Virus record (IMG/VR): IMGVR_UViG_3300010885_008642 | Location: 1 to 22,032 of that record | Origin: a virus | Strand: one strand, 5' to 3' | Length of the DNA: 22,032 bases | Part shown: piece by piece, positions 725 through 16,451 of the stretch | Layout: every line of letters begins with the position of its first letter | Numbering within the stretch: the stretch's first letter is position 1 | The notes under the pieces: generated by a model | Database searches by the model: none | What the model was told of the DNA's origin: nothing | The model's input: the letters and a program-made list of their open reading frames with translations, nothing else | Made by a program: the position numbers and the translations under genes

Positions 725-732
725 GATAAATA
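725..732 (+). promoter_or_regulatory. T4-type late promoter box GATAAATA
   Basis: GATAAATA differs from the T4 late -10 element TATAAATA only in its first base. It lies in the 65-bp gap before the gene at 783. By T4 spacing, transcription would start near 738. The same GATAAATA octamer occurs at 1563 and on the minus strand at 16451-16444, each time in a short gap just upstream of a gene, which argues for a real recognition element. Confidence 0.6.
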
Positions 733-736
733 CGTA

Positions 737-769
737 TATTACTTCAGCGCCGTAAAGGGCGGAGTAATA
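737..769 (+). promoter_or_regulatory. leader stem-loop at the predicted 5' end of a late transcript
   Basis: TATTACT (737-743) pairs perfectly with AGTAATA (763-769). An inner stem CGCC (748-751) pairs with GGCG (758-761) around a GTAAAG loop, with a small asymmetric internal loop between the stems. The structure begins at the transcription start predicted from the late box and ends three bases before the ribosome site AGGAG (772-776). It could protect the 5' end of the mRNA or present the ribosome site. The fold was worked out by eye. Confidence 0.5.
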
Positions 770-1562: not shown

Positions 1563-1570
1563 GATAAATA
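1563..1570 (+). promoter_or_regulatory. T4-type late promoter box GATAAATA
   Basis: The same octamer as at 725 lies in the 37-bp gap before the gene at 1598. T4 geometry puts the transcript start near 1576, giving a leader of about 22 bases that contains GAGAG (1585-1589) as the ribosome site. Confidence 0.6.
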
Positions 1571-1599
1571 TATGCGTACTTATCGAGAGATGCATATAT
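1568..1599 (+). promoter_or_regulatory. start-codon-sequestering hairpin present only in read-through RNA
   Basis: ATATATGC (1568-1575) is perfectly complementary to GCATATAT (1592-1599). The stem extends through G-U (1576/1591) and T-A (1577/1590), leaving a 12-base loop. The 3' arm contains the first two bases of the start codon at 1598. The 5' arm lies upstream of the transcript start (about 1576) predicted from the overlapping late promoter. Only RNA read through from upstream could therefore form this hairpin. Confidence 0.5.
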
Positions 1600-1882
1600 G
1601 TCAAGACCAAAACCTAAAGTGTTATTAGAATACACTAACAAAAAAACTTACAAATCTGAGCAGGTTTTAGAGTCTGAAGCCATCTGGGCTGTCTTCTATA
1701 AAGGCGAGCCTTTCAATCTAAAAAGTTTTAGTAGTGTAACCAGCTACCCGGGACCAAAGTATAAAAAGACCAGTTTTAGTAATCCTGGTCACGCATTAAA
1801 CCTAGCAAAAAAATTAAATTTAACTTTTGGTACCTCGGAGTTTGAAGTCTACAAACTTACCACCGGTACTGTAGTTAAATGA
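1598..1882 (+). CDS. small basic conserved hypothetical protein, 94 aa
   Basis: The frame starts at ATG 1598 (MSRPKPKVLLEYTNKKTYKS), with GAGAG eight bases upstream, and ends in ATGA shared with the next gene. The protein is lysine-rich and basic. It has a central YPGPKYKKTSFSNPGHALNL segment (about residues 49-68) that looks strongly conserved compared with hypothetical proteins I recall from T4-like marine phages. It has no membrane segment or catalytic motif. Basic charge and small size would suit nucleic-acid binding, but this is inference. Expression is probably late, from the GATAAATA box at 1563, with translation of read-through RNA possibly blocked by the overlapping hairpin. Confidence 0.8.
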   Translation: MSRPKPKVLLEYTNKKTYKSEQVLESEAIWAVFYKGEPFNLKSFSSVTSYPGPKYKKTSFSNPGHALNLAKKLNLTFGTSEFEVYKLTTGTVVK

Positions 1883-3473: not shown

Positions 3474-3502
3474 TTGACACCTCCTTCGGGAGGTGTTATA
3501 CT
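3474..3502 (+). promoter_or_regulatory. sigma70-type promoter whose spacer is a perfect hairpin
   Basis: A perfect -35 TTGACA (3474-3479), a 17-base spacer and -10 TATACT (3497-3502) precede the VWA gene. The expected start is near 3509. Bases 3477-3496 form an inverted repeat, ACACCTCC and GGAGGTGT, closed by TTCG. The repeat includes the last three bases of the -35 element and ends directly against the -10. Confidence 0.8.
3477..3496 (+). terminator. cUUCGg hairpin after the MoxR-like gene (possible attenuator or mRNA 3' stabiliser)
   Basis: In RNA from the upstream gene these 20 bases form an eight-pair GC-rich stem with a UUCG tetraloop, 20 bases after the stop at 3457. No U-tract follows (the next bases are TATACT), so intrinsic termination would be weak. 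Protection of the 3' end or pausing is equally possible. T4 also carries many cUUCGg hairpins between genes. Confidence 0.5.
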
Positions 3503-14929: not shown

Positions 14930-16423
14930 TTATAACACTAATGCTTCGATAACTACCACGCCAACATTTTCAGTTGTTTCTAGCGCGATTGCAAAATAAT
15001 CATTATTAGTACCGTAAGATGCTTGAGCAGTTCCGTTTGGACCTGCAACTAATTTTTGACCTTTCTTTACTTGTCCGGTTACTTTTACTGGAACACGGCC
15101 TTTGAGTGCAACGTATACGCCGCCTTCTAATCCGCTGTTCATCATGTATGCTGGATTTCCAGATACTGGGCCAACTGCACGGAATCCGACTTCACATGCT
15201 GTTACTTCTTTATCTCCACCAATCATTAAAACTGTACCAACTTCATATTCAGCATCAGCTAAGTATTTTTCTGCCAAGTCAGCGTAGTCTGCTGAACTTG
15301 CAATACCTTGGAATATGTTTGCAAAAATATCTGCATTGTTATCACGAACTGCAACAGTATTTTGAACCGAACCGGTATTACCTGTTCTGTATCCGTTACT
15401 AACGCTTTCTAATAAACTACTTGCCTGACTAGCTGTACCTGCAAAGTTTGTAGCATACATTGTATTATATTGACGAGTTTGGCTACCAATATTTGCAATA
15501 TTAGCTAAATTAATATCAGGAATAATTGTAGTTCCTGATATGGTCAACGGGCTTACTTGAGCACTGTTAACTCTAACTTGGAATACTAGTGTATTTCCCT
15601 GAATGTTTGCTAGTGTTGGAACACCGCCGCTGATATTAAACAAAATATCTTTATTGTCGCCTAACCAATATCCATTATTACTAAATTGTACAGTATTACT
15701 AAATCCAGCATTACCACTACGTAGATAATCAGTTGCTGGAAAGCCGCCTAGGCTATCTGAATCGCTGGATGTTCCCCAGAAACGCATAGTAGATTCTGAT
15801 GTTGTAAATTTACCATTTACATTTACTGAGCTACTCGATAGTGTAATGCCTTTGTTAATAGTAGAAAAACCACTTGTAGGATTGCTTGCAATGTTAGGAT
15901 TTAATACAAACGAAACTGAACTAATAACATACATTACTTGTCCACCGACATAAGCTAAAATTACCGAGTGTGATCCTCCGTTAACATCAGTTACACTTGC
16001 ACTTTGCATTTGTGTAGTGCCGGCGCCTGCAACACTTTGTGGGCCGACTAAAACATATCCTGCTCCGTTGTTAACATATACTTGTTGATTAACTGTATCA
16101 AACCAAAATTCGCCTTGTTTAGCACCGCTAGGTTGTAAATTTGTCACTGTGACTTCACACCCACTAGCTACACGATAACGACTACCGTCCCAGAAGCGTA
16201 ATTTTGCATTAGATGTATCGTACCATAATTGCCCAGTAAGCGGGTTGTTTGGGCCGTTCGCATTAGCAAAATTTTCTAGCATATACACTAGGTTTTCGCT
16301 TTGAATTTCGCCGTATCCAGCGTAATTTTTACCAATTAATTTAATCGGTAGTGTGTTATCTATAGTGCCGTCCGCTATTACTGTTAGCTGGGTTCCTCTA
16401 GAATTAAGAATCGTGTATGACAT
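14930..16423 (-). CDS. tail-fibre protein with shared N-terminal domain, 497 aa
   Basis: ATG 16423 follows GAGG and a late-type promoter box at 16451-16444. Residues 1-85 (MSYTILNSRGTQLTVIADGT, KNYAGYG, SENLVYMLENFA, GQLWYD) are the domain repeated in the next two genes upstream. It is followed by a second GEFWFDTVNQQVYVNNGAGY block (about 104-123). The middle is beta-rich. The C-terminus (about 370-497) carries SSADYADLAEKYLADAEYEV, NPAYMMNS, LKGRVPVKVTGQVKKGQKLV and ends VVVIEALVL. I recall this as a conserved C-terminal domain of many phage fibre proteins. Likely location is the distal tail or baseplate of the virion. A receptor role is possible but unproven. Confidence 0.8.
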   Translation of the reverse strand: MSYTILNSRGTQLTVIADGTIDNTLPIKLIGKNYAGYGEIQSENLVYMLENFANANGPNNPLTGQLWYDTSNAKLRFWDGSRYRVASGCEVTVTNLQPSGAKQGEFWFDTVNQQVYVNNGAGYVLVGPQSVAGAGTTQMQSASVTDVNGGSHSVILAYVGGQVMYVISSVSFVLNPNIASNPTSGFSTINKGITLSSSSVNVNGKFTTSESTMRFWGTSSDSDSLGGFPATDYLRSGNAGFSNTVQFSNNGYWLGDNKDILFNISGGVPTLANIQGNTLVFQVRVNSAQVSPLTISGTTIIPDINLANIANIGSQTRQYNTMYATNFAGTASQASSLLESVSNGYRTGNTGSVQNTVAVRDNNADIFANIFQGIASSADYADLAEKYLADAEYEVGTVLMIGGDKEVTACEVGFRAVGPVSGNPAYMMNSGLEGGVYVALKGRVPVKVTGQVKKGQKLVAGPNGTAQASYGTNNDYFAIALETTENVGVVVIEALVL

Positions 16424-16443: not shown

Positions 16444-16451
16444 TATTTATC
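16444..16451 (-). promoter_or_regulatory. T4-type late promoter box GATAAATA
   Basis: Reading leftward, GATAAATA lies in the 36-bp gap between two fibre genes. T4 geometry predicts a start near 16438, giving a 15-base leader with GAGG before ATG 16423. It shares the octamer with the rightward boxes at 725 and 1563. Confidence 0.65.

Follow-up and report, generated by a model that had tools for sequence, protein, structure and literature searches.

Our analysis of a 22,032-nucleotide stretch of viral DNA (the window) identified, in front of a small gene encoding 94 amino acids, an element that most probably works as a late-only expression switch of the kind known from the T4 genes e, 49 and I-TevI. 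Judging from sequence and computed folding, host RNA polymerase together with a phage gp55-type sigma factor would use the box GATAAATA as a T4-type late promoter. RNA reading through from upstream promoters would hold both arms of a hairpin that hides the start codon and the Shine-Dalgarno (SD) region, and little protein should be made from it early, as folding and selection suggest. Late RNA would begin near position 1576, inside or after the 5' arm, so that the stem could not form and the message would be translated. The late-only hairpin appears to be kept on this small gene in more than 100 relatives within a large jumbo-phage family. The design itself is known from T4; what is new here is its occurrence in a different jumbo-phage lineage and on a different gene. 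Covariation of the arms indicates selection for the T4 late-only leader design and its use beyond the T4 group, and a late expression time, which can be tested, is predicted for the conserved 94-aa gene. The features of the locus are the following:

1309 to 1560, + strand: co-directional gene that stops 2 nt short of the box, presumed source of read-through RNA (open reading frames)
1563 to 1570, + strand: box GATAAATA, putative T4-type late promoter at -13 to -6 (placement in relatives, conservation in leaders)
1568 to 1577, + strand: 5' arm of the hairpin (ATATATGCGT), overlapping the box and mostly upstream of the predicted +1 (folding, covariation)
1576, + strand: predicted late transcription start, +1 (T4 spacing; opening of the start region as a function of the RNA 5' end)
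1578 to 1589, + strand: loop, holding most of the SD-like GAGAGA at 1585-1590 (sequence; trimer in homologues)
1590 to 1599, + strand: 3' arm of the hairpin (ATGCATATAT), covering the A and U of the start codon (folding, arm position in homologues)
1598 to 1882, + strand: 94-aa gene, putatively controlled by the hairpin element (open reading frame; aligned homologues with 58-96% identity)
1879 to 2268, + strand: 129-aa gene, whose start overlaps the 94-aa stop (ATGA); both genes are likely carried by one late mRNA (open reading frames)

The preliminary description of this DNA had placed the box at 1563-1570 and the arms at 1568-1575 and 1592-1599, and all these coordinates agree with the sequence; the ATG of the 94-aa open reading frame is at 1598-1600. 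In the core stem, ATATATGC (1568-1575) pairs with GCATATAT (1592-1599), and the 8-bp core is lengthened to 10 pairs by G1576-U1591 and U1577-A1590, the G-U and T-A extension that had been described. The fold also bears out that the 3' arm reaches the start codon, whose A and U are covered, and in the minimum free energy structure three bases of the SD-like GAGAGA pair with 1579-1581. RNA from 1555 to 1620 folds with a minimum free energy of -14.3 kcal/mol (z -4.0), which none of 200 shuffled sequences equalled, and no significant structure was found for RNA from 1576 to 1640 (z 0.18). A repeat search with a 10-nt minimum misses the 8-bp stem. The extended element GATAAATATATGCGTA, allowing 0-2 mismatches, is present as a single copy, at the 94-aa gene, in most related contigs searched. 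Because of this single-copy location in most of these contigs, and because the arms covary, the inverted repeat is, on the sequence evidence, not a product of chance.

Opening the start region of the window costs 14.2 kcal/mol in read-through RNA and 2.9 kcal/mol in RNA from 1576, a difference of 11.3. A 5' end at 1574 or earlier keeps the masking and one at 1575 or later frees the start region, with 1576 predicted by T4 spacing; the proposal that RNA started upstream masks the start region and late RNA exposes it thus held when the RNAs were folded. The T4 controls gave long-minus-late differences of 12.9 (gene e), 11.5 (gene 49) and 1.6 (soc), so that the likeness to the T4 design, suggested earlier, extends to the energy difference in the cases of e and 49. 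For 134 distinct leaders of the 94-aa gene, the mean cost was 10.8 kcal/mol in read-through RNA versus 3.4 in late RNA, and the mean difference of 7.4 compares with 2.5 in 37 other GATAAATA leaders and 2.6 when the flanks were shuffled and the box kept (rank test on leader differences, p 4e-12, a value that ignores relatedness). The opening-energy difference is an imperfect measure, since the textbook case T4 soc reaches no more than 1.6; high scores also occur at the leaders of some other late genes, for example 15.4 at PA5oct 135020.

In the T4 leaders of e, soc, 49 and I-TevI, an inhibitory hairpin lies at the translation start and the late promoter lies in its 5' strand (PMC3014915). The element described here resembles them in that the late box is in or beside the 5' arm and in that read-through RNA hides the SD and/or AUG whereas late RNA exposes them, here by computed folding. 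Assuming T4 box-to-start spacing, late RNA would lack the 5' arm. The phage lineage, the gene and the box GATAAATA are different from those of T4. Unlike the stem of T4 gene e, a structure that is not apparent in several T4 relatives (PMC3014915), the stem here is kept with covariation in more than 100 distinct leaders.

This covariation was counted with sequence-anchored arms, because loop length varies and MAFFT misaligned the 3' arms. The arm pair at box offset +11 (G1574 in the window) is G-C in 72 homologues, A-U in 30, G-U in 4 and A-C in 1; its neighbour is G-C in 96 and G-U in 11. On a tree of the coding sequences, both sides of the offset +11 pair change in the same direction on 12 branches and in opposite directions on none, and one side alone changes on 12; an independent-pair sign test on supported branches gave a median p of 0.016. 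Native arm pairing averages -10.7 kcal/mol, compared with -6.4 for arms that differ at two or more places and were exchanged between leaders. Compensatory changes in both arms, for which the preliminary description had proposed aligning homologous leaders, are therefore present. Across homologues the loop varies from 6 to 18 nt, an SD-like trimer is in or at the loop in 105 of the 107 scored, and the 3' arm ends on the start codon in 55/107 and within 6 nt upstream of it in 52/107.

Divergent members join the same two regions by unrelated stems, as in leaders L291 (ATATCATACT/AGTATGAT), L235 (AAATAAA/TTTATTT) and L247 (CTGAATA/TATTCAG), and in L187 and the L209 group the 5' arm, located by eye, lies upstream of the box and is paired with the SD. 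It is conceivable, as a reading that falls just short of an even chance, that silence of the 94-aa gene until late is under strong selection across the jumbo-phage lineage and that the lock has been rebuilt several times with unrelated stems, L187, L209, L235, L247 and L291 being examples. If true, this selection for late silencing would single out the 94-aa protein as a regulator acting late or as a product that does harm when made early.

These leaders also bear on two other readings of the hairpin. A small conserved protein with a hairpin at its own start site is comparable to the autoregulation of T4 genes 32 and 43 (PMC3014915), and the hairpin could accordingly be an operator for a protein, for example the 94-aa product repressing its own translation. 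We regard this as unlikely: the loop ranges over 6-18 nt, the arm letters drift while pairing is kept and the stems of divergent members are unrelated, which argues against a specific protein site, since such a site should keep its letters; moreover, a search with the predicted 94-aa fold gave no match among solved structures (none in PDB with E below 0.7). Still less probable is that the inverted repeat acts as DNA, as a dimer-binding operator or a cruciform over the late promoter. The repeat does overlap the promoter and the predicted start point, where a repressor would bind, but the spacing of the arms varies with the loop, and departures from Watson-Crick pairing are mainly G-U, which RNA pairing tolerates (four G-U against one A-C at offset +11, and 11 G-U at the neighbouring pair).

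As for the promoter component of the proposed switch, the window alone is weak evidence for the box, whose meaning comes from its placement in related genomes: allowing one mismatch, GATAAATA occurs 42 times in the whole window versus 41.6 expected by chance, without excess. In related contigs it is the commonest 8-mer 5' of open reading frames on the sense strand (19 versus 2 antisense), and likewise in PA5oct (24 sense versus 2 antisense). The window and three related contigs together contain 21 exact copies, of which 20 lie 8-90 nt upstream of an open reading frame start, where about one would be expected. The genes 3' of late boxes include those for tail sheath, tail tube, the wedge and hub of the baseplate, tail fibre and virion proteins, and some of these structural genes are preceded by AATAAATA or TATAAATA in place of GATAAATA. 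A gp55-type late sigma factor family, phrog_12791, was detected in all four complete relatives and in 8/12 partial contigs (E 1e-73 to 6e-118), with hits of the T4 gp55 profile itself at identical positions; the family is absent from the 22-kb window, itself a genome fragment. The authors of the Atu_ph07 genome noted its late sigma factor (PMC6102473), and an orthologue of gp33, which takes part with gp45 in sliding-clamp coupling at T4-type late promoters, has been reported for group 2 jumbo phages (PMC7824862).

The earlier assignment of the box as a late promoter thus gains from its sense-strand placement, the structural genes downstream and the sigma factor of the relatives, and GATAAATA probably serves as a late promoter motif in the jumbo-phage relatives of PA5oct and Atu_ph07. 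It differs by one base from the T4-type late promoter TATAAATA recognized with gp55, precedes tail and baseplate genes as T4-type promoters do, and accompanies a gp55-type sigma encoded by the relatives; unlike in T4, the first position is mainly G here, in place of T, and the +1 is deduced. The start at 1576 follows from T4 box-to-start spacing, in which the first two late-box bases lie at -13/-12 (PMC2988020). A box is present in 137/138 distinct homologous leaders (L245 has none), and in nearly all of the 138 its first base lies 27-41 nt from the start codon. A few leaders have GC or AC at the first two box positions, a type reported for Aeh1 (PMC2988020). A literature search for GATAAATA together with late promoters found, among the papers listed, no phage paper naming the motif, and one on jumbo-phage late promoters found nothing specific.

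Leader processing is known in phages, and a nuclease cutting read-through RNA at the hairpin would likewise remove the 5' arm and leave a short 5' end, with no late promoter involved. This is very unlikely, given that no part of the element is more conserved than the box and that tail and baseplate genes have the same motif upstream. That the late promoter sequence is simply longer here and yields the hairpin as a side effect, as the overlap of box and arm might suggest, can practically be dismissed: none of the other late boxes listed has the extension TATGCGTA, and the 3' arm, about 15-25 nt downstream, covaries with it.

The late-only design is common among relatives, and it is not universal, as shown by leaders with little masking, the boxless L245 and three leaders (L236, L241, L244) in which no more than 14-15 nt separate the box from the start codon (locus position 1501). 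The opening difference is below 3 kcal/mol in about 12% of distinct leaders, and about a tenth have the box with no clear stem; masking is slight despite a kept gene and box in L023, L075, L252, L254, L256, L314, L322 and SCTP-2 (L085). Loss of pairing with gene and promoter kept, which the preliminary description had named as evidence against the switch, is therefore seen in a minority of relatives, and most leaders keep the pairing. Late mRNA of L236, L241 and L244 would be nearly leaderless. Also against the switch, a box at 725 would give late RNA that still contains the 94-aa hairpin. After this second GATAAATA, within 725-766 (+), come a strong hairpin (TATTACT...AGTAATA) and the sequence TAGGAG; late mRNA would carry this hairpin at its 5' end with the SD left open, and leaders L263 and L268 have a similar element. 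On the minus strand, a gene (14930-16423) that matches tail-fibre and virion proteins has GATAAATA 28 nt upstream, at 16444-16451, where a late promoter would be expected.

Read-through RNA into the 94-aa gene is plausible, because the genes form a tight co-directional cluster and relatives carry upstream sigma-70-like promoters. No forward terminator-like site was found between the gene at 1309-1560 and the 94-aa gene, and overlap or abutment of the 94-aa and 129-aa genes recurs in related contigs. Four relatives (G001-G004) have sigma-70-like promoters at a distance of about 2-5 kb upstream, most of them in front of the same gene run. No strong one was found upstream in the window, nor within 9 kb upstream in PA5oct; the strongest in the first 5 kb of the window, at 2274 and 3474, are downstream of the 94-aa gene. 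The open reading frame called at 783 (+) probably starts at 852 (ATGACAGAAATACACGC), and many relatives align only from about residue 20-27.

The 94-aa protein has no Pfam or PHROG match. Its structural model (mean pLDDT 91) comprises four strands and one helix, and its significant matches in BFVD are uncharacterised phage proteins only. By this gene the window, a piece of a jumbo-phage-like genome, is related to PA5oct, Atu_ph07, Phosso and SCTP-2. All four have a 94-aa homologue with a NATAAATA box before it; they differ from the window in that the homologues are only 45-62% identical and the leader stems are of other sequence, weak in PA5oct and displaced upstream of the start region in SCTP-2. 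A viral scan with the SCTP-2 homologue protein found nothing.

The sigma-70-like promoter at 3474-3502 (+), between an AAA-ATPase gene and a phrog_1314 gene, reads TTGACA-17-TATACT, and its spacer is a perfect inverted repeat (CACCTCC TTCG GGAGGTG). The counterpart in relatives lies about 1.85-1.9 kb after the start of the 94-aa gene and shows no fewer than seven distinct arm sets, all fully paired, for example CAGGACC/GGTCCTG, CACCGCC/GGCGGTG and CAGGGAC/GTCCCTG; 42/49 matches to the pattern are paired at all seven positions. Spacer stems of 7-8 bp were found in 22 of 215 distinct promoter-like sequences and in none after shuffling. The spacer repeat is possibly a hairpin of read-through RNA embedded in the promoter.
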